Source: Erigeron canadensis (taxonomy: Eukaryota > Streptophyta > Magnoliopsida > Asterales > Asteraceae). Taken from it: a stretch of DNA of 64,000 bases. Position numbers and translations under genes: made by a program. The stretch is taken from NCBI RefSeq assembly GCF_010389155.1, contig NC_057765.1, forward strand, positions 28,336,980-28,400,979. The letters run 5' to 3'. How positions within the stretch are numbered: the first letter of the stretch is position 1; each line of letters starts with the position of its first letter. This document shows, piece after piece, positions 27,463 through 61,137 of this stretch. The notes under the pieces are model-generated. The model worked only from the letters and a program-made list of their open reading frames with translations, made no database searches and was not told where the DNA came from.

Positions 27463-30400
27463 ATGCATGTAAGTCCTCAATCACACTTTCTAGGGTTTTG
27501 AAATTAATTGTAAATTATAATAATTTAATTTTGTTTAATCTAATTGTATACTCTCGATCATTAATTATAATTTCGTTTAATTTTATTGTAATTTTTTAAA
27601 TTAATTAATGCAGTCAATGGACGCTAAAGACCTCAAGAAGAAGAAGAAGAAGAAGAATACGCATTATACCTCAAATCCTACACACACTGGTAAATTTTAA
27701 TTTATTTTTTCATTATAATAATAATAATTATATATATACGGAGTAATATAAAATAATTATATATGTATGTAGATGTATGTATGTACGTAGTTTGTTAGAG
27801 AGCTAATGCATATGATGACAAAGTAAAAAATTGGAGCTACAATTTTACATGCATTTTGTTATTATATATTTTAATTAAGCTGTAAAATTATGAGTGTATT
27901 GCGTCGAGATGTAATGAACTGGCGTAAATTGTCATCGTATGTTATGATTATGATTCTATGAATTTGGAACTAACTGATTAGTAGGTTTTTACTGTACATT
28001 AGGGATGAGCAAGATTACCGAAACATATAAATTGTGGTCCAAGTGACAAAGCTTTTAGATTTTTCGTAGGGGGAGGGGGGCTTAATACATATAAGTTGTT
28101 CGAATGAATTACAGATAAAACTACACTGCTGAGTGAAAAAAGGGGAGGGGCCAGGGGGCCAACTAAGCTTCGCCCTTGGGTCAAATTGTGTATACGTATT
28201 GGTGATTGGTTGATCTAGTAGTGTCGACATGATCGACTTTTTTTTAATTATTATTACTGTTACTTCATTTACGTAGTTGATATTTGTTGGAACTAACTAC
28301 GTAGAATCAAAATGATTTATTATCCCATAGTTCTCAAAAGCGAAATGATTTATTATCCCATAGTTCTCAAAAGCGAAGGCGACCTCAAAGCGCAAAGACC
28401 CCAAATAGGGCGAAGGTGAGAGGCGCAAGAAAAGCGCACGCCCGGAAAAAAAGGCACACTAAGTAAACAAATATAAAATATGTATATATAGTGAAAAATA
28501 ATAGTAAAAAAAATCAGATGTGAGTTATAAAACCAAATATCATTCAAAAAAATATAAACTTTTCAACCAAAAACTTCAAATTATTATAAACATATATAAA
28601 CAATATCATAATTTTTCTTCCCCCCATTTTATATTTTCACTCTCTTCTTTTATCTTCTTAAATGACTATGGTTACTCAGTTTGGTTGGATCTTGAATGAT
28701 TTGGTCGAATCTTGACCCATTTGACCATTTTGACCGCCGTTGAAAACCACAGTTGACCGTCGTTGACCGCCTTTTTCATGGTTGACTTAGGCCTAGGGTT
28801 TCAGGCGTTGGAGGTGGGCCTCGCCCGCCTTTTGCTCCTAGGCGCAAGAGGCGCTCGCCTTTGACAACACTGATTTATCCAATACAAAACAAAAAGAACT
28901 TTTTTTTATATATTAATTAATTTTATAGAAGGGTACCTGCGCGATGCAGTGGAGTAATGGTGGTGGCGTGGTGACGGTGACGGGTGGTGGTGGCGTGCAG
29001 TGGAGGTGGCGGTGTAATGGCGGCGGCGGCAATTGGCGGTGGTGGTGGTGGCGGCGAGTAGTGTAGGTAATTGATGTAATGTGATTTTGATAAGTTGTTG
29101 AAACTTAAAATTCAAACATAATGTAGCTTGCTTTATAATATAGTATACATATAGATTTGGAATATAATAAAAAAAAAAGTTTATATGGCCTCAAGTATGA
29201 TGAACACAAAGACACAAATCAGTTACATATCAATATGTTTCTAGTTATTTTTTTTATAGTAAATGGTGACAGACTAAGGATTGGGAGTTTGTAATATTAG
29301 ATGGTTAGTATTGAAACTCATTACACACAATGATAATTTGTTTTTAAGTACCTCTAAAAATTTGTAACCTAAGTAATGTTGGTAACCTTGATCAATACTT
29401 TCTCTGTATTAGATGGTTAGAAACTTCTTTTTGGGCTCGTCCTAGGCCCAAAATTCTTTAGAGCTGCTGGATGCAAATAAATGTCTGGATGCTTAAAACC
29501 CTTTTGTGTTTATCTGCCTTGGATTCATAAGAGGTTTTCAACATGCAACTTGGTCTCTTCTAATTCATATGGCTCATTAAGTAGATATGCAGTTTTAAGT
29601 AAAAAATCCCTAATCCCCCCCTAATTTGTTTTTTTTAGCATATATGATACTTGAATTTTGGTGCCTAATACTTTAATCTTGTCTAATCTGTTAGTAGTAA
29701 ATTGCATGATATGGATGACGTGGACTTGTGGTAGGTAAAGAGTTCTAGGATTTGCGATCTTTGATCACGATGTTCTTTTATTCTCTCTCTCTTTATATAC
29801 ACACACACACACATACACATGTTTGTGGCTTGAATCCAACTCAAAATATAAGAAGTGTTTTTTCATTATTTTGATTAGCATTCTCTTTCTAGCTAGTAGT
29901 TATAGGCTGTCAAGTAGGAATGTAGGATGTTATTGAAGAGTGAAGAAACCTAAATCATTTTGCAAGTCCGATCTGTTCATTTCTTGTGTCACGAGCAATC
30001 AAGATGACTTCTGGAGTTTTGTCCTTTCTCTCATATTTTATTGTGTTATTAAGAGTTTCATGCAATAAAGAACTTGGATTTTGGAAAGTTTTAGAGATTA
30101 CTTTGGTTCAAGATGATAGATAGGACGGAATACTTCGATTTCTAGGAGCAATTTTGTAAGATACACACCTTATATGAGACCGTTGAGTGGTGAGCAATGA
30201 GAATGAGTGAAACAGAAGGAAAGAAAAGAAGAAAACTGAGGGGTGAGAGGGTGAGAGTTGGTATCTGATACTAAAGAAGAGAAAAGCTGTTTGAAACACA
30301 AAGTATGTATATGTCAAAATTCAATCCCTTGCTTTTGCAGAGAGTTCCTTTACAACATTTTATACCCCTTTTATAAGACTATAAACCAACTTCATGTTTC

Positions 30401-33400
30401 TATGTATTGTTTAGACTTCTGTGATAATAGAAATGTTTCCAGCACGGTTTTCTTCATTGTTTATCATTCTTGAAAACCTCAATGGTACATGGGACGTTTA
30501 ACCATATATTACTGACTTTAGGCGTTTAGCTGTTTGGTGTTGTGAATAAGGACCATCTTGTACAGGAAAAAGAAATTATACCCTTGTGAGTTGGTATTCT
30601 GGTGTCCAGTTGTAGAAGTGTTAATCAGATTCTATTATGTAAGTGCAAAACCATCCCAAATGGTGTCCAGATGCATCCCTTAACTGCTGTCTCAGTGTAG
30701 AATATCTCACCGTGTGTGGTTTGTGTTTTAATGTTTGTTTCAGAAATGTTCATGGGACAAAAAGTCAATGGGGAAGAAAGTGTATCTCCAAGCCCACTGT
30801 ACGCTGCATACACACTTGATGCAAACAAGACCAACAAAACTGTGGATCACACAAATCCATTTAATATTAGAAACTTGATTCAAGAGATTGATTCATCCAA
30901 ATATGGGTCTGTTACAAAAGATATAGAAGACCTTCTTTTGCTAAGAAAACAAATGTTGATGCCTTGTTTAAGAAGATTCCCCTCACTTCGGGCTGATATA
31001 ATGGAGACAAATCATGTGAAGGACGTTTCCAATGCAAATCCTATGAGGGATGTAGTTATGTTTGATGCTGGCAATGGTCATGATATGAAAGCACCGGATA
31101 ATGTTGTTAATATCGACTCAGATGATGATGATGAACCCAAATTTGGGAGGCCTTTTCAACCGTATCGAGACATAGTCCTAAATAAATCTGAAGGGCAGTT
31201 TTCAATGAAACAATTTTTGGTAAGATGTTCTACCTTTTTGTTCTTCATTTTTATGGTGCAAACTTGCATGGCTCAAAAATTATATGTTGTGTATTTATAC
31301 TGCCAGATGTCTATGTATTTCATTCATTCTACAAATTAAGTTTACCATATTTACTAGTCCATAAAAGATCTGATTTCAGTGAATGCATGTTTTATTTGTC
31401 TGATATTTCTCTTTCATACCATGCAGGAGGGAGATTATGCTCCGAGCCAATCTTCAGCTGCTAAAGGTGGAGGAGTAGGTGCTGCTGCTGCAGCAGGAGT
31501 GGGAGGAAGAGGAAGAGGGGGTGTGAAAGGGAAAGGGAAAGGTGGAAGAGAAAAAGAAGGAGAAGGAGGACAGACTAAAAATACAATCGACTCCAAAGGT
31601 GTAGACAACAAAGACGCTGATAGTGACGTAGAAGATGAAAAAAAGCTTAGTAAAGGGGAATATGTTGGAAGCCATTCCGATTCAGATATGGATGATAATG
31701 ATGATGTTAACTTTGACGGGCTAGCTGATATATGGAAAGAAATGAATGTTGGATTAGAGTCCTCAAAGGTATTTGATTTTTTTATTTGTTCTCTGCATGG
31801 TCACATGCCAAAGCAATAAAGAGGTAAATGAAGTTCATAGAAAGTATATGGGGATACATTGTGCTCGGGTAAGTTTGCATAACGAAGGCAAAGAAAACTT
31901 TGGGCAGGTTTCCGTTTTAGGTGACCGGCATCTTTTATGCCACAAAAAAACCATCAGTTTTTCTAAAAATTGATTTATGGCAACCAACTATCAATAAATG
32001 TTATTCAAGTTATCAAGAGAGGGTAACTGATAAAAAAATATGGCAACTGTTGACCATGTTGCTTATTATAATGAAGTGGCGTTTTGAAAATTAGGTATCT
32101 TTTGAAATTGCTTTGCTTTAATCTCTTTTGAAAGTTTGACGGGTTTTTTTTGGTCTAGAAGATAGTCATTTCAAAACAGAACTCATACCAAAGTTTGTAA
32201 CCTTTTTATGTAAAAGTATCTATATAGAAGTGAAGTGATCAAGTGAGAACCAAAATAATGGTGAGAACTGTGAGAACCATTAAAAAACCATCTCTAAGGG
32301 CTACACCCGTACCGTATCCAATCGCCACCATCTCTTGGATCGCCGCCCATCAAATCCATACCATTCCCATATGCGTCCGGTGACAACCCCTTTAGAACGG
32401 ATAAGGGCAATGCCCATACCGTATCCATACATTTTCAACACGTAACCCATATGATTTAAAAAAAAAAGTTATGGAATGGGTTTTTATTAAAAGAAAATAT
32501 AAAAATTAAAAAAATTAAAAATTAAAAAACCACACCAAAAAAGAGAGTGAGGGAGAGAAACTAATGGTTCTCACAGTTCTCACACATGTTTTGGTTCTCA
32601 CATTAACCCTACCCCTATATGGAGTACACAACTTAATTAAACAGTTCTTTAAAGTCTATACATCCCTACTAAGTTATGTACGGTGTTTTCTCATCCTCAT
32701 ATGAAATTGGACATCCTGTTGTATCACCTAGATCCCCAAGCAGTCCGTTGAGATTTGATAGCAGGAGAACTGTCAAGTCATTCAGCTTTTGAAAAAACAT
32801 TTTGAGCAAGACCTTTGAAATTTACCTGATGCGTTTGAAGTATTTCTGTTTTCTGACATCAGAATTTATTTTTGACAATCTAATGCTTTATCTTCTTCAA
32901 AGTTACTTCTAATATAACTTCCAAACTGTGTTGTATTTTATTTATCTCAGGATGCCGCTATGGATATTTCATTAGACGAATATGAAAACGAAGTTGAAGA
33001 AGTATGCGATCATTCTTTTATATTGAAAGACGATATTGGCTATGTTTGCCGTGTCTGCGGAGTTGTTCAAAAGAGCATTGAATCCATAATTGAGTTTCAG
33101 CGTCCCAAGGTCTGGTTCTTAATTACCCCAGAATTATTTATCTATAATTTTTTTATATAGTTCATTTGATATGTTGAGACTTATTCCTTCCCTTGGATAG
33201 ATAATACATGTGCTTAATGCATGGCATTGCATGTGACAGTCAACTTAGCAACTTATGAGATTTTGTTATTGTATTTCATTTAAATTCAGACCTCAAAGAG
33301 TACGAGAACATATTATTATGAAGGCCGACCGGATAAATCAGCTGATGCAAGTGATGCTGTTCTTGATGGAGTTAAATTACCCGGACTAGACTTCTCGGTG

Positions 33401-35128
33401 CAAGACATAGCTGCTCATCCGAGACATCAAAAGCAAATGAAACCCCATCAAATCGAGGGTTTCAATTTCTTACTCAGTAACTTGGTTACTGAAAATCCGG
33501 GTGGCTGCATTCTGGCCCATGCTCCTGGATCTGGGAAGACGTTTATGCTTATCAGTTTCATACAAAGTTTTATGGCTAAATACCCTGACTCTAGACCATT
33601 AGTGGTTCTACCTAGAGGTATTCTAGAGACTTGGAAAAAAGAGTTTTCCAGGTGGCAAGTTGAAGACATTCCGTTGTACGACTTTTACTCCCGAAAAGCT
33701 GATAACCGGGCTCAACAGTTGGAAGTGCTCAAACAGTGGGCTAACCAGAGGAGCATTCTGTTTCTTGGGTACCAACAGTTCTCAGCCATAGTGTGCGACA
33801 ATGATAGGAGCTCGGTTGCAGTCAGCTGTCAGGAGATACTATTGAGATGCCCTTCACTTTTAATCTTAGATGAAGGTCATACTCCAAGAAACAAAGAAAC
33901 TGATATGGTTACCTCTCTTGGGAAGGTTCAGACACCAAGAAAGGTCGTGCTTTCTGGGACTCTTTACCAAAATCACGTTAAGGAAGTCTTCACTATTTTG
34001 AATCTCGTTCGGCCGAAGTTTTTGAGAATGGAGGAACCCAAAATGATAAAACGACGTATATTGAGTAAAGTATCATTTGAATCTCGAAAAAACTTTTCCA
34101 AAAAATGCTCAGATGAAGAGTTTTCTGACTTGGTAGAACAAACGTTACTCGGAGATGACATTTTGAAAAGGAAGGTGAAAGTTATTGAAGATTTACGAGA
34201 AATGACAAGCAAAGTTCTGCACTACTATAAAGGGGATTTCTTGGATGAACTACCTGGGCTTATGGACTTTTCAGTCTTTTTAAACCTTAGCCCCAAGCAA
34301 AAACGTCAAGTTCCCGAGTTGAAACAATATACGAGAAGATTTAAACAAGTCTCCGTTGGTAGTGCGGTCTATTTGCATCCGGATTTAAAGGTTCTTGCTC
34401 AAACCATTCCAGATAGAAATGATGTCGATGTGAACAAAATGATCGATGAACTATTGGAGAAATTGGATGAGAGAGAGGGGGTGAAGACTAAATTTTTTCT
34501 CCATCTACTTCGTTTATGTGAATCCAGTGGGGAAAAGCTTTTAGTTTTTAGCAATTATCTACTCCCTTTGAAATTTTTGCTCAGATTGACCATGAAAGTC
34601 AAAGGCTGGGTTATGGGCAAGCAAATTTTTATGATAACTGGAGATGATGACAATGATTCGCGTGAGGTATCAATGGATAGCTTCAATAACTCATCTGATG
34701 CTAAAGTCTTTTTTGGGTCAATAAAGGCTTGTTCGGAGGGTATTTCACTAGTTGGGGCCTCTAGGATTATAATACTGGACGTGCATTTAAACCCTTCTGT
34801 CACCCGCCAAGCATTAGGTCGTGCTTTTCGACCTGGTCAGGTAAGGAAAGTATATACTTATCGATTAATTGCTGCTAATACCCTTGAAGAAGAAGATCAT
34901 ACCACATGCTTCAGGAAGGAGTCTATTGCGAAGATGTGGTTTGAGTGGGATGAGTACTGTGGTCGTCATGAATTTGAGATGAAGACGGTAGATGTTAAAA
35001 GTTGTGGTGATGAATTTCTAGAAAATTCGTGGTTGAATCAAGATGTAACTGCATTAAGTCAAAGGTTAGTAAATTTATTTCTCTCCAGAAGTGGCAAACA
35101 GACAGGACAGGCTGGGTGGGTTGGGTAG
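27463..35128 (+). CDS. DRD1: DRD1-type SNF2 chromatin remodeller of RdDM
   Basis: DRD1 works in the nucleus with DMS3 and RDM1 (the DDR complex) to let RNA polymerase V transcribe loci undergoing RNA-directed DNA methylation. Six exons: 27463-27468, 27614-27689, 30744-31219, 31427-31768, 32951-33109 and 33290-35128. All borders are GT-AG and all phases agree, giving 965 residues (Arabidopsis DRD1 has 888). Exon 3 starts with a segment amplified in the gene at 52-61 kb. Exon 4 is a Gly/Ala/Lys/Arg-rich then acidic linker. Exon 5 has a Cys cluster (Cys319, Cys333, Cys336). Exon 6 carries the SNF2 motor: APGSGKT (431-437), DEGH (547-550), [26 protein letters not shown] and [11 protein letters not shown] (about 860-870). 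The first coding exon has only six nucleotides (Met-His); Met at 27617 is an alternative start. Introns carry two MITEs. Confidence 0.93.
28311..28376 (+). repeat. 33-bp tandem duplication at a MITE junction
   Basis: AATGATTTATTATCCCATAG plus TTCTCAAAAGCGA is present twice, at 28311-28343 and 28344-28376. The unit joins flanking DNA to the first bases of the MITE. Confidence 0.9.
28359..28870. mobile_element. MITE in DRD1 intron 2
   Basis: The left end (CATAGTTCTCAAAAGCGAAG) and, on the other strand, the right end (GTGTTGTCAAAGGCGAGCGC) are imperfect inverted repeats rich in AGGCG. TGATTTATTATCC before and TGATTTATCC after are probably a degenerated target duplication. About 0.5 kb, no ORF; superfamily unresolved. 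Confidence 0.65.
28937..29056. repeat. GGT/GGC-rich simple sequence
   Basis: GGTGG and GGCGG trinucleotide runs within DRD1 intron 2; the antisense frame over it is His/Thr-rich low complexity and not a gene. Confidence 0.8.
32243..32601. mobile_element. MITE in DRD1 intron 4
   Basis: The ends are inverted repeats of about 40 nt: GTGAGAACCAAAA with GTGAGAACTGTGAGAACCAT on the left (from 32243) and their complement on the right (to 32601). Each arm contains GTGAGAACY three times. A target duplication is not obvious. No ORF. Confidence 0.75.
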
Positions 35129-48262: not shown

Positions 48263-48403
48263 ATGATGTTAACATTATTTTGGTTGGATGATGTTGCTCT
48301 CACAAACCATTAAAATCATGGGTTTTTTTTGACATGTGTAGAAATTGATTTAAGTAAGTTTGTGAGAGCAACATCATCCAACAAAGATGATGTTAACATC
48401 ATA
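48263..48403. mobile_element. Small fold-back MITE
   Basis: ATGATGTTAACATTATTTTG on the left pairs with CAAAGATGATGTTAACATCAT on the right, and an inner GTTGCTCTCACAAAC pairs with GTTTGTGAGAGCAAC. About 46-nt arms around a 50-nt centre, 141 bp in all. No target duplication could be assigned. Confidence 0.75.
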
Positions 48404-50305
48404 AATCATCGAAGCGCGTAACCCGACCAGGCGAAAAGCAGTAACCCGACCACCCACTATTAGCGGCGACGTCGCCGTAAATAGTGGGCCCCCTCTGTCA
48501 GTCAACACCTGCCACAGCCTGCCCCTTTTTAACCGTTTCACGTTGTGGTGGTCCCCACTATTTGCGGCGACGTCGCCGCTAATAGTGGGCCCCCCACTGC
48601 ATTCTGCCGTTACAAACCACGCTATTTCTTCTTCTCCTCTTCTCTTCTCCGTATTATTACAAACCCTGCATTTTTTTACATGTCTTTTAAGGACTTTGTC
48701 TAAGCGTACGATTTCATCAGCCATGATGTCCAAAGCTTTAAGTGAAACCTTTCCCAATAGGTCCTTCATACAGTTGTAATTATGTTTCCCCTTCCGGGTC
48801 CCGTTGCTATACCCTAGTTGGCCCCTTATTTCTGTTTCTTGAGCGATCAGGACAGAATCAACACATTGCAGGATTCTAGTAAATGTGCATTTCCCCCTCA
48901 ATTCTTCCTTCAGTAGGTGGTGTTCGGCCTCGACTCTGTTTGTGGTGTGGTTTTGGTAGTTGAGGTGTTCATCGACCCAACAGGACACAAACTGCTCTCG
49001 GTATGGGGACAACCAATTATCGGTCAGGTACTTGTAGACGCCTGGGAAACCTGCAAGTTTTTTCTTTAACTCCTTTTCGTTAGACTTAAACTCGTCAAAA
49101 GTCCGAGATTGATAGACTTTTTTTCACCAGTCGTTAAGCCTGTCAATGTTAACATCTTTCTTCATCTGCAATGCCGGTTCGCAGTGCTTCATTATGTTTT
49201 GCCATATATGGTACCTACACAGTAGTTGTTTCGCTTCCGGCATAACAACCTTCAAAGCTCTCATCAAGGCCAGCTCCCTGTCAGTAAGAACGACACGAAC
49301 GACAAAGCTATCAGCAAGGGTGGACTTGAGACATCGTAACACCCATTGATAATTCGCCTCCCGTTTGTTTACGATAAACGCATACGCTAAACTGAAGGTC
49401 TTCCCCGTTGAAGTCACGTCGACGATCTCAACTAGCGGCATGTTATAGATGTTGGTTTTGTACGTGGAGTCTATTTCAATAACCTAGGGGAATGCGCGCC
49501 ATAGGGTCATTGATGTTGGATGAATGAAAAACAGGTTCTCCAAGCGTCCATTTTTGTTATTTGTGATGAACTGGTAAAAGTACCTTTTCTCCTGCAACAG
49601 TGAGAACATTACCTGCGAAAAGTGACCAAGGTAAAGTAAATAAGTCAATTCCAACAACGTAGTACAATATAATATTTAATGTTTGTACCTGCATTGGAGT
49701 ACGCCCTGCTTGGCCGGACCTCCATCTCGCTTTCAGGAAGTTGGTAATGTCTCCTTTCCGAGTCAGGTTTCCTGGAAATTCAAGTTTGAGGTTTACCGGG
49801 ATCTAATGTGGGTACAAACCGCGATCCGATTGGGTCCCCACATATTCCTTTTCTTCATCCGTCATCCGTCTAGCGTATGCATTCCCTTGCAGATCGGTAG
49901 TTGGATCATGATTGTGTCTCCAATCCTTGACGGTTAACCTCCAACCACCATCACGCCCAGGGCGGCCTATTAAAGTGAAGGGACAACCTATCTTACTGGA
50001 CCGTTTGGGTGGGCCAATTAACCTTGCATCGCGCGCTCCACCGTGGTGACATATAAGTGTCACTTTATTGACCACCTCTTTTGAGTTTTTGTTCGTTCGG
50101 CGTAAGACTAGAACATAACCCAAATCCATTGCTGTTCTTTGAGCCCACTCCGTTAATTCTTCAAAGGAATCGAAGACCTCGTCAGTTTCGAAGTCCCCAG
50201 CTTCGCATTCATATTCACCGTCTACATCAGGTTGCTCAAACACATTATCCGACACTTAATACGTACGTTTTCTGGGTTTGCCCAAATATCCTCCAAACTA
50301 TCCAT
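48374..50305 (-). pseudogene. MULE transposase gene with three in-frame stops
   Basis: MULE transposases cut and paste Mutator-like elements in the nucleus. The minus-strand frame opens at 50305 (MDSLEDIW) and includes an N-terminal zinc-binding region (FDSFEELTEWAQRTAMDLGY, CPFTLIGRPGRDGGWRLTV, WRHNHDP). A region like LEFPGNLTRKGDITNFLKAR follows, then the catalytic core IEIDSTYKTN, VLTDRELALM, CRYHIWQN and NRVEAEHHLLKEEL, consistent with a DDE triad. In-frame stops lie at 49805-49803 (TAG), 49486-49484 (TAG) and 49126-49124 (TGA), and a shift near the start separates MDSLEDIW from the acidic segment. The frame runs into subterminal palindromes at the 3' side. It is inactive. Confidence 0.85.
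48453..48589. other. Two 36-bp near-perfect palindromes
   Basis: Palindrome 1 is 48453-48488 and palindrome 2 is 48554-48589. Both read CCCACTATT, one spacer base, GCGGCGACGTCGCC near the centre, then AATAGTGGG. Copy 2 has a single mismatched pair (T opposite T). They lie in the subterminal zone of the MULE, next to two copies of TAACCCGACCA (48419-48429 and 48442-48452). Confidence 0.85.
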
Positions 50306-51644: not shown

Positions 51645-54600
51645 ATGGCAAGTTTTGACACAAATAAGCCGACCAGATGCGATGAACGTGGAGGAAGTTT
51701 TGCTGCTGAAGGTATATCGGAATTTTCCACCGATAAGGTACAATGTTAAGATATGTTACTGTACATTCATCTTGTTAATAATCGAGTGATGTTACTGTTT
51801 TCTAATAAAAAGAAGTCAATTTCAGGTGTTTAAGTCTCATCAAGATTTAACGGATTGGGTGCAAAATATGGGACGTTCTCTTGGTTACGTTATTGTTATT
51901 AAAAGAACAAATGCACGACCTTGTGGGTATGTATATAAAATTAGACTTATGTGTGATCGTAGTGGTGTATACAAAAATAAAAGTCTGGTTGCAAATCCTA
52001 CGAGCAAAAAGACTAACTGCCCGTTCGAATTGGAAGGAAACTATTCGTGCAAGTACGATTGTTGGAAGTTAAGGGTGATATGTGAAAAACACAACCACGA
52101 ACCTGCACTAAATATGAAGGGTCATCCATATGCAATGCGTTTGTCTAAAGATGAAGCTCGTTTGGTGCTAGATTTGTCAAAGAAGAATATGAAACCGCAA
52201 GCAATTCTAGCAATACTGAAGAAGCAAAATGCAAATAATATGTCCACGATGAGTACCATTTATAATGCACTTACTAAGTTTCGGAAGAGTGGGCTGCTAG
52301 GTATAACTCATTTACGAGTTCTTGTGTCATTTTCAGACGAGAAGGTTATAGCTGTTTCATTAACACGCCAGTAGAACTCAAATACCGTTTCTGATTTTGG
52401 TTTTTGTATACTTCGTTACAGAAAAATCTAAGGGACAACCCACCACCGGTGAAGAAATTGCATCTATGAGCTCACACACAGTTGATGGAAACAAGTCCAA
52501 AAGAGCTGTTAATCGCTCTTATCAGTTTGGATTATCAAACACATGCAAAAATAGTATGGTTAATATTTTCAGTTCAAATGCAGTCTAGACTCTAGAGGTA
52601 TAAAATCTCACTATCTGTTGGCTTTTATCTGATTGTTGCAGAAACTTTTATGGAACAACCGATCAATGGTGTAAAAAGTTATGTGAACCCCATGTGCCCT
52701 GCACATACATTTGATGCGAACAAGTCGAAGAGAAGTATTGATCATTCGGATCAATTTGCAGACCCAGACACTTTTGAAACAAGTAAGGTTTAACATTTTA
52801 GTCTAAATGCAGAATTCTCGCCATCTGATTATATTTTATTTTACAATGTTAGATACAGAAACATTCACAGAAAAAGCAATCAACCATGAAGACAGTGCAT
52901 CTCCGAACCAAATGTACCCTGGATATGTATTTGATGCAAACAAGTCAACAAGAACCATTGATTACATTGATCCATTTTCAGTTCATAACAGCTGTGAAAC
53001 AAGTAGGGGTAGGGCATCAGCGCAAAATTTAGTCTAGATGCAGAATTTTTCTTACCATAAGTTTTTGGTCTTTGTATGTTTGTTTCAGAAGTATTCATGG
53101 GACAGCCAATCAAGCGTGAAGAAGATGCATCCCAGAGCCCTGTATACGCTGCATACACATTTGATGCAGACAAGTCGAAGAGACCTATAGATCATATGGA
53201 TCCGTTTGTTATTGAAAACTGGGTGCAAGAGCTTGATTCAGCTAAATTTGGTGCTGTTAAACAAGATATAGAAGATCATATGCCAAGAGAACAGATGATT
53301 CCTTCGTTTAGAAGGGTTCCCTCACCTCAGATCGATTTGATGGAGACATTTCCAGTGAGAAATATTTCCATTGCAAATGTTGTGAGGGATGTGTTTATGT
53401 GTACTGATGGCAAGGGTCATGATACAAGTGCACCAGATGCTAATCTCATAGCCTTCCCGGATAATGAACCCACATTTGCGAGGCCTTTTCAACCATATCG
53501 AGACATGGTCTTAAGTAAGCCTGATAGGCAGTTTTTGATGAAACAGTTTTTGGTAAGCTGTCCCAACTTTTTTGGTCATATTAAATGAAGTAATGATGTA
53601 ACCATCCTTGTCTATTTGATGCAAAATATCGCGGATCAAAAAGCTTGACATGTATACCGGTAGAGGTAACAAGTTGGGTGGTCGTAAAACATATGAATAC
53701 GGCCACTGCCCTCTTCTATCCATTTTTCTAGTTTATAAACAATAGTTTTGTTCAATTTGACTGAAAATACTATACACGTAAAATAGTTATCTTTGTAATG
53801 CACTTTCATAGGTTGGAAGCATTGACACTTTTTAGGCGACTAACATTACTACATTTTTTACTCATTTGACATGTCCTACTTTATGCTAAGTTTATGTAGA
53901 TTACCCATTCGACCAATTAGAGATAAAATGCAACCCAAATTTCGTTTTTGGTAAATTGAAGGAAATGGCCACCTCAACTTACTGGTTTGCATACCACTTA
54001 CAGATCATACCTACTTTGATAGTGACAGTCTGGCCACTGGTGTGATTGAATACCTGAAAGGTCTTAAGTTAACTTAAATCATTCATATGTATAGGTTATA
54101 TATGAAAAACTAGCTGTATGTGAAAGCTGATTGTGTAGGGCCCTTTGTTGATAACATTCTCCCTTAGCATACTAATAACTAAATATATAGATAAATGTTA
54201 AAAAGATAGTGGCATCTGGATGTACCACATTTAAATGGTGCATCAGCCATCAGGTTCTTTATTATATCACATAGAGTTTTGACTTTAATCACCATGCAGG
54301 AGGAAGATAATGCACATGGGCAATCTTCAAGGGGTAATAGCGGAGAAGTAGACGACGGTGCAGAAGAATATCGGACGAATACAGCTGTTGAGCCAATAGA
54401 TGAAGAAGACAAAGACATGAATGTTGATAGTGATGTTGAGGTTGAAAAGAAGTACGATAAAGGTGTTCAATTTGATTCGAAACTTGTGGCGAGTTCTCAC
54501 CCAAAAAAATCAACCCGAGGTGATGAAAATGAAAGAAATTTGGAAGTGGAAGGCACATCAGGATTCTCTACTAACATGGTATGACAGTTAACTTTATTGA

Positions 54601-55145
54601 TATACATGTATATTGTTAAATCATCCATTAACATTACTGGTTTCTAACAATACAAATTTCATTTCAGATGTTTAAGTCTTGTCAAGATTTAATAGATTGG
54701 GTGCAAAATGTGGGTCATTCTCTTGGTTACTTTATTGTCACTAAAAGATCCAATGCACAACCTAGTGGGGATGTATATAAGGTTAGCCTTATGTGTGATC
54801 GTGGTGGTATATTCAAAAGTAAAAGCTCCATTAGAAAAAATACCCGGAGCAAAAAGACCAACTGCCCATTTGAATTGGAAGGAAAAAAGTCGAGGAGGCA
54901 TGGTTCTTGGACATTAAGGGTGATGTGTGAAGACCATAATCATGAACCTGCACTACATATGGAGAATCATCCATTTGCAAAGCGCTTGTCTGAAGATGAA
55001 ATTCGTTTGGTGCTAGATTTGTCAAAGAAAAATGTAAGCCCACTAGAAATCCTATCAACGCTGAAGGCACAAAACAAAAATAATTTTTCCACGCTTAGCA
55101 CCATCTACAATTTACGGCAGAAGTTTCGGAGGACCAACAATGCAG
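51645..55145 (+). CDS. Chimeric FAR1-domain / DRD1 N-terminus gene, module 1
   Basis: Function unknown. Eight exons join in phase with GT-AG borders: a 51645-51737, b 51826-52300, c 52422-52553, d 52642-52782, e 52853-53002, f 53089-53552, g 54300-54578, h 54668-55145. The product so far is 737 residues plus one base. Exons b and h encode FAR1/MULE-type zinc domains (FKSHQDLTDWVQNMGRSLGY, LMCDR, TNCPFELEG, HNHEPAL) followed by RLSKDEARLVLDLSKKN. Exons c, d, e and the start of f repeat the first segment of DRD1 exon 3; the rest of f ([20 protein letters not shown]) and g match DRD1 exons 3 and 4. No Walker A or DEGH motif occurs. If exon h is not spliced onward, translation stops at 55219. Start: Met at 51645 after an in-phase leader. 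The absence of stops in all eight exons argues for recent or present selection. A DNA-binding competitor or targeting partner in RNA-directed DNA methylation is conceivable but only a guess. Confidence 0.7.
52422..53220 (+). repeat. Tandem exon-intron repeat, period 211-236 bp
   Basis: Four exon starts (52422, 52642, 52853, 53089) follow at spacings of 220, 211 and 236 bp. Each encodes variants of FMGQPIxxEE, then AYTFDANKSKRxIDHxDPF. The intron between copies also carries shared text (CATCTG, then TTTGT...TTTCAG), so the duplicated unit is exon plus intron. The source segment is the start of DRD1 exon 3 (30744 onward, [20 protein letters not shown]). Confidence 0.9.
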
Positions 55146-55702: not shown

Positions 55703-55847
55703 CAATAAACACCGTAACAGAATTGTAATTGTATATTGTGATTAAACCAATATTACAAGGGATATATATAAGAAACATAATTACACTTTATAATCCTATA
55801 CTATAGGCAAATACTATAACTAAAGTATAACTCAATCTCGTCTAATA
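55703..55847 (-). repeat. 3' LTR of the copia element
   Basis: 145 bp, CAATAAACACCG to CTCGTCTAATA on the plus strand, preceded by TTGGG. Confidence 0.92.
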
Positions 55848-55854
55848 TTCCCCC

Positions 55855-58650
55855 TCAAGCTAAGGTCGAGAAACGACTTGTAGCTTGGACCGTATAGAGA
55901 AAACGTTGTGACAACAACGGCTTAGTAAAGATATCTGCTATTTGATCATTGGTTGAGATAATCTGGACCGACAATTGGCGGCTAGCAACCCGTTCACGAA
56001 CAAAGTGAAAATCAACCTCTACATGCTTTGTACGTGCATGAAAAACAGGATTTGATGATAAATATGTTGCTCCCAAATTGTCGCACCATAAATTAGGCAC
56101 GAATTTTAAAGGAATACGAAGCTCACGCAGCAATGTTTGAAGCCACGTGAGTTCGGCAACAGTGTCTGCTAAGGCCTTGTATTTAGCCTCTGTGGATGAC
56201 CGAGATACAGTTTGCTGCTTACGAGCAGACCATGATACAAGATTAGAACGAAGATAGATGGCATATCCCCCGGTGGATCGACGGTCATTTGGACAACCGG
56301 CCCAGTCAGCAACAGAAAAGGCATTGACCATCTTAGGTTTAAAGGTGCTATCAGTATAAGCATGAAGAATTGTACTAGAATCATGTTTGAAACAAAGACC
56401 AAAAGTAACTGTCCCTTGTAAGTACCGCAAGATGCGTTTAACCGCGGACTAGTGACTCTCCGTAGGAGAATGCATAAATTGACAAACCTTATTAACAGCA
56501 AACGTGAGATCAGGGCATGACAAAAGAACGTACTGAAGAGCACCAACGACCTGTCGATATTTCACCGGATCAGAACATGGGGGACTATCTCCAAGGGCAA
56601 GATTAGCCGTAGTAGTAATAGGTGTTGGAACAGGTTTAGCCTTAGAAAGACCAGCACGGTCAAGCAACTCAAGGATATACTTCTTTTGGGACAAAATAAC
56701 ATCTTTTCTCGTATGTATAACCTCAACACCCAAAAAATAAGATAAGGATCCAAGATCTTGAATCGCAAAGCACCGGCTAAGACGTTGTACTACTAAGTCT
56801 ATAGCTTTAGAGTTGTTGCCGGTCAGACAGATTTTAGTTTTGTTTTAAACTGTCGTTCAACCATGACAACAAACGGTTTAAAAGTAACATACACATCAGA
56901 TTTTAAAGCTAAAGGGTAAATCCACATGAACTTAGAATAATGATCAACACATAGAAGAAAATAACGATGACCATTAAAAGAGGTAACGGGAGCCGGACCC
57001 CAAACATCACAAAATACCAAATCCAAAATATTTGAACTTTTAAAAGAAGATGGCAAAAGATGAAGTTTTGATGATTTGCCAACCGAACATGAATCACAAA
57101 AGGAGTCGATACATTTATTTAATAAAGGTAATTTATATTTAAATAACATGGATTTCAAAAGTTGAGGATGAGGATGTCCCAATCTTTGATGCCATGTTGT
57201 GGAAGAGACCCGAGCAGTTGAAAAAGCAACTTTTGGAATAGCTTGTATTCGCGGAAGGTGGAAGGAATAAAGACCATGTTCACTTCGACCTGTGAGGAGG
57301 ATGGTGCGTGTAGACGTGTCCTTCACACAAAAGAAAGTCGAGTGAATTCAAAGAATACGTTATTGTCATGGCAAAATTTTTGAACGGAAAGAAGGTTACG
57401 TTTAATTTCTGGAACATGAAGTATATTTTGAAGAGAAAAGGTTTTGTTTGGGGAATAAAATTTAGAGGAACCAATACGAAGAATGGGTAAACCCTTACCA
57501 TTGCCAACATGAAGATTGTCTTCGCCATAATAAGTTTCAGAATTGTCAAAGTTGGAGAGATTAGGGCTCACATGCTGATTAGACCCGGTGTCAGGAAGCC
57601 ATGAGGAAGAAGCTTGAGATCTGTAGTCAGCATAGTTTGCAGATGGCTGTGAACGTGTCCTTATATTTGTCAGGTCATGGTTGGGACATTGAGAGGGAAC
57701 ATGGGCTATTCCACACCTGTTACATGTACCATAAACAATATGCTAATTAGTTGCCCAACTAAATGGACTGCGATTACCTCCTTGGTTACGGTTGGTGAAG
57801 TTCCCTCGTCCACGATTTTGGCGGTTGTTGGAGCCACGATATGTATTAGTGCTTGATCTATTTGTATAATAAGCCTGTGATGGTGATGAAGTAGAAGGCT
57901 GAAGTGTCAAATCGAGCTGATTGGCAAGCTGTTGTATGGCTCGAAGAGCTTCAGATTGATTTAGCGATTGACCAGTTGAGAAGGGGGTACTTTGAGTAGT
58001 ACTGGCGAAGGCTTGAGTAGTAGCAGCAACGTGAAGGCTTGTGCAGGTGATACATCAGTAGCCTTTTTGATCATGTAATCATAATCAGACAACAAACCTT
58101 AGAAGCTCATTAAAAGCAGTCGGATTTTGACGAGCTAAAAGGGTGGACTTGAGTCCATTGTATTCATCACGTAAACCTGAGATAACTAACATAATAAGAT
58201 CCTTTTCTTTCATTGGCTCACCAATGTTAGCAAGAGCATCGGAGTATTCAGTAGCACGAGTCAAATAATCAGAAGATGACTCATCTCCCTTCATAGTGAG
58301 TTTCAACAGTTGAGTCTTAAGAGTGTACTCCCTGGAGGAAGTATGAGGAGCATAGGCACGTTCCAGGGGATAACCACAAGTCTTGTGAGGTCATCCCCTG
58401 TACATGCTGGAAAGAGCTTTCAGAGATATTAGACAATATAAGCATGCGAACATGGGCATCATTAATTAGGGTTTGGCTGAGAGGTTGTTGCAGCTGCCTT
58501 GTCTTTGTCAGGAGGAGAGCTCTCGGTTTGTATAATGGTTGATGGGCACGAGATAGTGCCATCAACATAACCCCAGAGGTTGTTAGTGACCAAAAAAGGA
58601 TGAATCATGGCTTTCCAGTAGCCATAGTTTGTAGGGGTGAGAGTGAATCC
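55855..58650 (-). pseudogene. Copia polyprotein remnant
   Basis: Minus-strand pieces in order: gag (about 58570-58085, SDYLTRATEYSDALANIGEP); a CxxC knuckle-like zone near 57710; protease-flank and GAG-pre-integrase (57571-57180, ILHVPEIKRNLLSVQKF and TWHQRLGHPHPQLL); integrase start (to 56823, FCDVWGPAPVTSFNGHRYF). A junction follows near 56830 where the frame jumps to the end of reverse transcriptase (SYFLGVEVIHTRKDVILSQK, to about 56450) and RNase H (56430-55855, [34 protein letters not shown]). The reverse transcriptase catalytic motif region is absent and several stops and shifts occur, so it is inactive. Confidence 0.88.
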
Positions 58651-58779
58651 GAACTTGTGTGAGTTATGAGTTGTTTTTTCTTTTTGATCGAAAGTTGCTG
58701 CTTGGGTTAGGGTTTTTTTTTTTTAATTATACGGCAGTATTGTTACTGCAAGGGTTAGGGTTATTGTGCTCTGATACCA

Positions 58780-58926
58780 CAATAAACACCGTAACAGAAT
58801 TGTAATTGTATATTGTAGTTAAACCAATATTACAAGGGATATATATAAGAAACATAATTACACTTTATAACCCTATACTATAGGCAAATACTATATAACT
58901 AAAGTATAACTCAATCTCGTCTAATA
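58780..58926 (-). repeat. 5' LTR of the copia element
   Basis: 147 bp, same ends as the 3' LTR, followed by TTGGG; next to the Met-tRNA primer-binding site. Confidence 0.92.
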
Positions 58927-59720
58927 TTGGGTGAGCTTATTTTTGAAGCTTATTGCTTGAGCTTATAAAGTATAAACTAATAAAGTGTTTGGGTAAAGCT
59001 TCTTTTTACAAGCTTATGGCTTCTTATGAAGAAATAAGCCCCATAAGCATACACCAAAATTTTGAAGCTTATGGCTTTTTATGAATAGCCAAATAGGCCA
59101 ACAAGCATAAGAAAAATAAGCTCACCCAAACACTTGTGAAATAAGTAGTGCTGATATCATTGTGAGTCTAAATGTAAAAGTTCTTACCATCTGTTGGTTT
59201 TGTATCCTTGTCACAGAAATATCCATGGGACTGCCCATTGATAGTGAAGGAAGTGCATCTGCAACTCGAGAGTACACCGCATACACATTTGATGCAAACA
59301 AGTCGGAAAGCACTATTGGTCACACAGATCCATCTCGTAAACTAGATACATCATACATGTGTTTTAAGTATGATTAATATTTTCAGTTTGAATGCCGTCT
59401 ATATTCAGAATATCTAAGCATCTGTTGACATTTGCATGTCTGTTTCAGAAGCATTTATGGAACAATCAATCAATAATGTAAACTGTGCATCTACAAATTC
59501 AATGTGCTCTGCAAAGGCATTTGATGCAAGCAAGTCAAACAAAACTGTGGATCAAACGGATCCGTTTGAAATCCCAAACACATGTGAAATAAGTAGGGGT
59601 TTACATGTTTAGTCGAAATGCAGTCTAGTCTAGATACAGAAAACCTGACCATCTAAGTTAATTTTTTTTTATGTTTGCATCAGATACATTCATGGAACAA
59701 CCAATCAACAATGAAGAAAG

Positions 59721-60298: not shown

Positions 60299-60391
60299 GA
60301 AAGTGCATTTGTGAACTCAATGTACACTGCTAATGCAGTTGGTGCAAACAAGTTGACCATAAGTATCGAATACATGGATCCTTTTGAAATC

Positions 60392-60481
60392 TCTAAAAGC
60401 TGTCAAATAAGTAGGGCTTAACATTATCAGTTCAGATCCGGTCCAGAGTCTAAAAGCTGTTAAATAAGTAAGGCTTAACAT
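60392..60481 (+). repeat. Duplicated exon end and splice donor
   Basis: A 33-nt block (TCTAAAAGCTGTCAAATAAG through GGCTTAACAT) at 60392-60424 recurs at 60449-60481 with two substitutions, 57-bp period. The first copy holds the GT donor of exon k; the second is an extra donor-like site downstream. Confidence 0.85.
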
Positions 60482-60640: not shown

Positions 60641-61137
60641 GCAGTATTTCTCATCATCTATTGTTGGAATTTTTATGTTTGTTTCAAAAACATTTCTAGG
60701 AGCCTCGATAAAGCGTGAAGAAGGCGCATCTCCGAGCCCAACGTACACTGCGTACGGATTTCATTACATGGATTCAGTTGCTAATGAAAACTGGGTGAAA
60801 GATCTTGATTCAGCCAAATATATGTCCGTCTTAAAAGATATACAAGAGCATTTGCAAGGAAATAGATGTTGATGCCTTCTTTTAGATGGTTGCTCTCACT
60901 AGAAGTATCAAATGGAAACAATTTCCAGTGAAAAATACTCCCATTGAAAATGTTGTGAGGGATGCAGTTATGAATTGGAATGGTAATGATACTAGTGCAC
61001 TAAGTACCGATCTCAGAGCTGTCTCAGTCTTGTATGATAAGTGAAGCCACTTTTGCAGGCTTTCAACCATGTCAAGACATAATCAAGACATAATCTTAAA
61101 TAAGCGTGGAGAGCAGTTTTTTATGAGGCAATTTCTG

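Follow-up and report, generated by a model that had tools for sequence, protein, structure and literature searches.

Introduction

In primates, exons 1–5 of CSB, a gene of the SWI/SNF family, are spliced to a piggyBac transposase to give CSB-PGBD3 (PMC2268245, PMC3459987). FHY3/FAR1 and FRS/FRF are transposase-derived FAR1-type proteins that have been put to host use (PMC6000157). Here we describe chimera 1 (LOC122601496), a gene of horseweed (Erigeron canadensis, daisy family) within a 64,000-nucleotide stretch of contig NC_057765.1 (the window, whose first base is position 1). Its transposase-type DNA-binding pieces are spliced between pieces of the chromatin remodeller DRD1. We put at roughly 0.55 the probability that chimera 1 is a protein-coding chimeric gene for a domesticated, predicted DNA-binding protein that arose from a transposase-remodeller fusion.

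Small interfering RNAs (siRNAs) guide the RNA-directed DNA methylation (RdDM) pathway. Methylation readers act upstream of the DDR complex, according to PMC6718625. Neither methylation readers nor siRNAs are readers of DNA sequence. Open-access full-text searches aimed at DRD1, FAR1, SNF2 or transposase fusions in plants gave no paper, among those listed, that describes this fusion, judged by titles and the starts of abstracts, with subscription papers and preprints outside that range. A term search of the main text of a transposon-domain fusion screen (PMC12062965) returned no SNF2, FAR1 or MULE.

Results

Structure of the Predicted Fusion Gene

Chimera 1 has nine exons, all on the + strand (51645–55145 and 59217–59377), and all eight introns are GT-AG. 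The model is identical over 792/792 residues to the database protein LOC122601496 (P0001), an independent annotation of the same protein found in both uniref and nr. The initial annotation had exons a–h joining without a stop, and they do share one frame with GT-AG introns. It had placed the end of the gene at 55145, which is too early; exon i (59217–59377), beyond a Copia-type insertion, is the last exon of LOC122601496. The agreement with an independent annotation, and the joint presence of both parts in proteins of eight other species, make the fusion structure more than chance.

Exon a (51645–51737) supplies the start codon and a transposase-type N-terminal linker, both of which resemble the start and linker of Tagetes P0030 and Helianthus P0031. 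Exons b (51826–52300) and h (54668–55145) each encode an AFT/FAR1 (WRKY-GCM1-type) zinc domain and a predicted helix-turn-helix. Two exons with a FAR1/MULE-type domain had been expected, and Pfam profiles agree: exon b matches AFT (PF08731) at E 2.4e-11 and FAR1 (PF03101) at 1.7e-5, the latter below the FAR1 cut-off, and exon h matches AFT at 1.3e-8 and FAR1 at 1.6e-8, above it. AFT passes its cut-off in both b and h, and FAR1 also passes its own with the whole protein as query. The C-C-H-H zinc ligands are kept in both chimera 1 domains and in 19/19 fusion domains of at least 100 profile positions, a count that leaves out the truncated domains of P0003, P0006, P0007, P0009 and P0017 (in the P0006 example, 3/4 ligands are missing). 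By fold match, the two modules are predicted to be DNA-binding.

The catalytic MULE domain (PF10551) was found by Pfam in 0/7 of P0001–P0007 and not in P0014, but P0008 and P0012 do have it. One linker type makes up exon a and the second half of exon g (54300–54578). A similar linker, compared by eye, stands just before the AFT/FAR1 domain in the Centaurea proteins P0008 and P0136, and for this reason a+b and the second half of g with h look like the 5' exons of a MULE transposase. When the genome was searched with exon h, four array exons came top (65–100% identity) and the rest reached at most 55%, among the best 150 of 492 candidates scored; one match outside the array, L029, adjoins MULE-transposase-like frames.

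Exon f (53089–53552) is a full copy of DRD1 exon 3 (30744–31219). The two align over their full length with 53% amino acid identity and the same entry phase, and the DNA match continues into intron sequence at the flanks (75% across 511 positions). Exons c (52422–52553), d (52642–52782), e (52853–53008) and i are partial copies that cover only the 5' part of this exon; c is weak (E 0.001 to exon f). Exon g begins like DRD1 exon 4, a weak match of 47 bp across the splice acceptor (81%) and 15 residues further on (E 1.2). Pfam gave no match on exons f–g up to E 1. The initial annotation had assigned every exon other than b and h to DRD1 exons 3 and 4. This stands for c–f (exon 3) and, weakly, for the start of g (exon 4), and fails for a and the second half of g, which are transposase-type; exons c–e are similar to exon 3 but cover only its 5' part. 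Its exon numbering of DRD1 fits once a 6-base first exon is counted. Profile and sequence comparison uphold its central claim that transposase-type DNA-binding domains are joined to a non-catalytic part of DRD1. Domain and sequence comparison likewise found no SNF2 motor in chimera 1, as had been claimed; a motor is present in P0027, P0030 and P0031.

Constraint after Fusion

Ratios of nonsynonymous to synonymous substitution (dN/dS) were estimated between copies within one genome. Compared with its neighbour chimera 2 (LOC122598879, P0002), chimera 1 has a Nei-Gojobori dN/dS of 0.52 (0.40–0.70) over 522 codons, and 0/1000 bootstraps reached 1. The pooled value covers exons d, e, f, g, h and part of i, with a, b and c outside it. 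By exon, the ratios are 0.70 (e), 0.54 (f), 0.44 (g), 0.46 (h) and 0.42 (i, 37 codons). All six pairs of the four FAR1 exons gave 0.34–0.56, every upper bound lying below 1. For the youngest pair, h2a/h2b, the ratio was 0.34 (0.17–0.68) at dS 0.20. Exon f compared with DRD1 exon 3 gave 0.62 (0.40–0.97). In a neutral simulation, the chance of staying open was 0.05–0.16 per exon and about 5e-7 for six together, a figure that overstates the case because the exons were picked for being open. These ratios indicate that the coding sequence is under purifying selection after the fusion, exon d excepted.

Related Fusions in Asteroideae

Three protein searches and two profiles of our own identified at least 12 predicted proteins in which a FAR1-type unit and an exon-3-type unit occur together, in 9 species. 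The count is a lower bound among 142 proteins, as exon-3-type matches were listed for only 13 preselected proteins; one search scored the 7989 candidates sharing most words, and another returned the best 120 of 174 matches. Both parts occur in P0001 and P0002 (Erigeron), P0003 and P0004 (Rutidosis), P0005 (Bidens), P0006 (Artemisia), P0007 and P0017 (Tanacetum coccineum), P0009 (T. cinerariifolium), P0027 (Mikania), P0030 (Tagetes) and P0031 (Helianthus, 8 member sequences). The predicted proteins of Helianthus, Tagetes and Mikania place two or three transposase/DRD1 units ahead of an SNF2 motor, with SNF2 and helicase C among their precomputed domains and the motifs GSGKT, DEGH and RAFRPGQ. 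Bidens P0005 has helicase C only and none of these motifs. Smallanthus P0028 has DRD1 copies and a motor, and was left outside the 12 because our profile found no FAR1 domain in it. In Mikania P0027 and Tagetes P0030, the repeat unit also contains copied sequence from DRD1 exon 5 and from the beginning of exon 6; the transposase linker is therefore joined just before motor sequence, a joint that differs from that of Erigeron and Helianthus.

Erigeron, Rutidosis, Mikania and Artemisia represent four tribes of Asteroideae, and Centaurea belongs to Carduoideae. The remaining genera with fusions are Asteroideae as well. Within the limited reach of the searches, no fusion was found among the matches from Centaurea, Lactuca, Taraxacum and Cynara, which were MULE proteins, AFT/FAR1-type proteins or DRD1s. 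By their sequences, the chimeric genes are not a one-off but a family, seen here only in Asteroideae, and in these predicted proteins host and transposase parts share one spliced frame across species. The DRD1 of Rutidosis (P0022) and both Rutidosis chimeras are probably on one chromosome.

In the exon-3 tree (domains of at least 85 positions), the fusion units of Erigeron, Rutidosis and the Heliantheae alliance (10 rows, including 2 from Smallanthus P0028) group in a single clade with support of 94/89. This clade is separate from nine DRD1s, and three Anthemideae rows lie outside it. The FAR1 tree was built from domains of at least 100 profile positions. In the SNF2 tree, the fusion-type rows number five, with P0028 and the short P0005 among them, and require two changes, a number imposed by the branches starred there. 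The motor of the Helianthus fusion is the sister of a Helianthus debilis DRD1 motor (100/99).

The DMS3-RDM1 Docking Segment

A segment of exon f (53205–53282, + strand) aligns, in diverged form, to the DRD1 peptide that binds DMS3-RDM1 (6OIT chain G, peptide 7). The match has an E value of 0.58 for exon f and 3e-5 for DRD1 exon 3, and the homologous segment is present. The docking motif GSVTK(D/E)IE is kept in 9/9 DRD1 proteins aligned. This alignment took only fusion units of at least 80 positions, apart from two Rutidosis stretches added by hand. A second DRD1-like gene of Erigeron, at C4:35654686–35655102 (L014, L024), has no FAR1 modules and is probably P0038; the motif of P0038 is intact (GSVTKDIE).

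The Tandem Array

DRD1, chimera 1 and chimera 2 stand in a single orientation in an array of about 53 kb on contig C5, which runs beyond the window. The canonical DRD1 (CHROMATIN REMODELING 35-like, P0019; + strand) occupies 27463–35128, with exons at 27463–27468, 27614–27689, 30744–31219, 31427–31768, 32951–33109 and 33290–~35065. Its 3' end is provisional, as P0019 matches to ~35065 and the open frame reaches 35128. Chimera 2 has two FAR1 modules and no copy of the first module (a–b) of chimera 1, and a stop cuts short its last DRD1 copy. Behind it, beyond the window, lie two broken SNF2 helicase C pieces with stops (L022:7199–7757). These two fossils resemble each other, which suggests that the motor end was duplicated before it decayed. 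An intact motor behind the Erigeron chimeras was sought; only these broken pieces were found behind chimera 2, and none between chimeras 1 and 2. Since the fusions of Helianthus, Tagetes and Mikania keep their motor and motor fossils lie behind chimera 2, the lack of a motor in the Erigeron genes is probably secondary.

With exon f as query, the genome gave 12 matches at E ≤0.01 (17 candidates scored), 11 of them in the C5 array and 1 on C4. Small RNAs made from the array are unlikely to silence DRD1, as chimera and DRD1 share only ~75% DNA identity. The intron between exons h and i holds a Copia-type long terminal repeat (LTR) retrotransposon (55703–58928, − strand), whose LTRs (55703–55849 and 58780–58928) are 96.6% identical over 149 columns and whose coding part is broken into several open frames. 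Downstream on the + strand are a further partial copy of DRD1 exon 3 (59451–59588), open and outside the database protein, a weak and truncated one (60299–60406) and a decayed full copy of exon f (60690–61137) with stops and a frame change.

A fragmented MULE-type transposase (48374–50255, − strand) lies just upstream of chimera 1, with an AFT/FAR1-like N terminus 32% identical to exon h. A FAR1/MULE-like fragment at 1712–1927 (− strand) shares 31% identity with exon h across 74 residues.

Discussion

Several findings weigh against reading chimera 1 as a domesticated gene. The pooled dN/dS averages two copies, one of which could be free of constraint. Exon d has a ratio of 1.02 relative to chimera 2, and decayed copies lie at the 3' end of chimera 1. 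FAR1 domains are truncated in P0003, P0006, P0007, P0009 and P0017, and the fold model is of moderate confidence (predicted local distance difference test, pLDDT, 69; predicted template modelling score, pTM, 0.43). A role in silencing is weakened by the docking motif, which is altered in 13/13 fusion-type rows aligned. The docking segment is conserved no better than the rest of exon f (24/39 versus 48/78 sites), and deletions interrupt it in Rutidosis, Artemisia and Tanacetum. DMS3-RDM1 docking through exon f is possible but weakened; docking as a conserved core of the fusions is not supported by the conservation comparison.

The trees also contribute to this side. All 13 fusion exon-3 units come together in 2% of bootstrap trees, and the approximately unbiased (AU) test does not reject the grouping (p 0.37); one clade that includes the Anthemideae is neither shown nor rejected. 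The 19 fusion FAR1 modules lie on one side of a weak branch (39/0, 38% of bootstrap trees), so a single origin for them is weakly supported. In the fusions, the SNF2 motors do not form one clade but fall within the DRD1s of the Heliantheae alliance, which suggests that a neighbouring DRD1 supplied the motor or traded motors with the fusion. Inheritance of one full-length fusion whole with its motor is opposed by the SNF2 tree. Considered together, the three trees point to an N-terminal array that probably predates the divergence of these tribes, with motors swapped with or taken from DRD1 neighbours.

The Erigeron genes could instead be decaying relics: an ancestral full-length fusion worked, and its descendants in Erigeron are disappearing after losing the motor. 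Motor fossils behind chimera 2, the decayed copy at 60690–61137, the early stop in the last DRD1 copy of chimera 2, the Copia insertion, the dN/dS of about 1 in exon d and the altered docking motif would all fit such a history. It sits less easily with exons a–h, which are open with GT-AG introns, with the youngest pair h2a/h2b, whose ratio is also below 1, and with six open exons at the (overstated) neutral odds given above. The fossil alternative is weakened by the dN/dS values below 1 and by the relatives in other species, and we consider it rather unlikely. Another reading is that predictors chained adjacent transposase and DRD1 fragments that make no single protein. Models and joints do vary by species (Mikania and Tagetes are unlike Helianthus and Erigeron), Tanacetum P0009 is named a receptor kinase and starts with unrelated sequence, and motor and array could be two neighbouring genes that were merged. 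However, a similar order of parts recurs with the linker in several genera, and both halves are constrained in the reading frame of the model, which is kept over eight introns; such an artefact seems improbable. MULEs can capture genomic sequence (PMC4858842), and the transposase half resembles MULE proteins, but a mobile Pack-MULE that captured DRD1 exons is very hard to credit here. The confinement of exon f matches to the array (11/12) and one C4 gene opposes a Pack-MULE with dispersed copies, and chimera 1 has the same orientation as the DRD1 beside it.

Sequence comparison shows that exons resembling the 5' portion of a MULE transposase gene (linker, AFT/FAR1 zinc domain and helix-turn-helix), without its catalytic domain, are fused to DRD1 exon 3 copies and the beginning of exon 4 in a repeated unit. 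If chimera 1 is indeed a domesticated fusion, a mechanism can be proposed. The modules may bind DNA sequence-specifically, first at the termini or promoters of the MULE family to which they belong. A fusion with a motor would be a DRD1-like remodeller aimed by transposase modules. The Erigeron protein, which has no motor, would occupy those sites as a DNA-binding scaffold and either keep silencing away or tether the remaining contacts of the DRD1 N terminus. Guiding of, or competition with, the silencing machinery, as the initial annotation had suggested, is conceivable on this scheme. A broader proposal is that Asteroideae have a transposase-guided branch of RdDM, in which a DRD1-like remodeller with arrays of MULE modules silences MULE families and the motorless Erigeron proteins are antagonists; we regard this as quite doubtful. 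Were it true, an RdDM remodeller with transposon-derived DNA-binding modules would offer a directly testable route to sequence-specific targeting. It would also be a plant parallel to CSB-PGBD3, and would mean that a silencing factor is being remade with pieces of its own target elements.

CSB-PGBD3 is the nearest idea to chimera 1. To our knowledge, it lacks the SNF2 motor. Both combine the N-terminal part of an SNF2-family protein with transposase sequence, and both have long been kept. Chimera 1 differs in using only the DNA-binding part of a transposase, which is repeated, comes from a MULE, also stands N-terminally and is found in a plant; it uses a silencing remodeller, and its relatives keep the motor. 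FHY3/FAR1 and FRS/FRF are likewise FAR1-type and transposase-derived. Unlike them, chimera 1 has no MULE domain, and its AFT-type module is repeated and joined to DRD1 exons. The likeness to DRD1/CHR35 of the DDR complex (PMC6718625) lies in exon f, which resembles DRD1 exon 3 including the docking-peptide segment, and in the start of exon g, which resembles exon 4; the Erigeron chimeras differ in lacking the motor, in their altered docking motif and in their added DNA-binding modules. In the domesticated Harbinger-type proteins of plant chromatin complexes, ALP1/ALP2 and HDP1/HDP2, transposase-derived parts also work with chromatin or methylation machinery. Those proteins are separate subunits and are not joined to a remodeller in a single chain.
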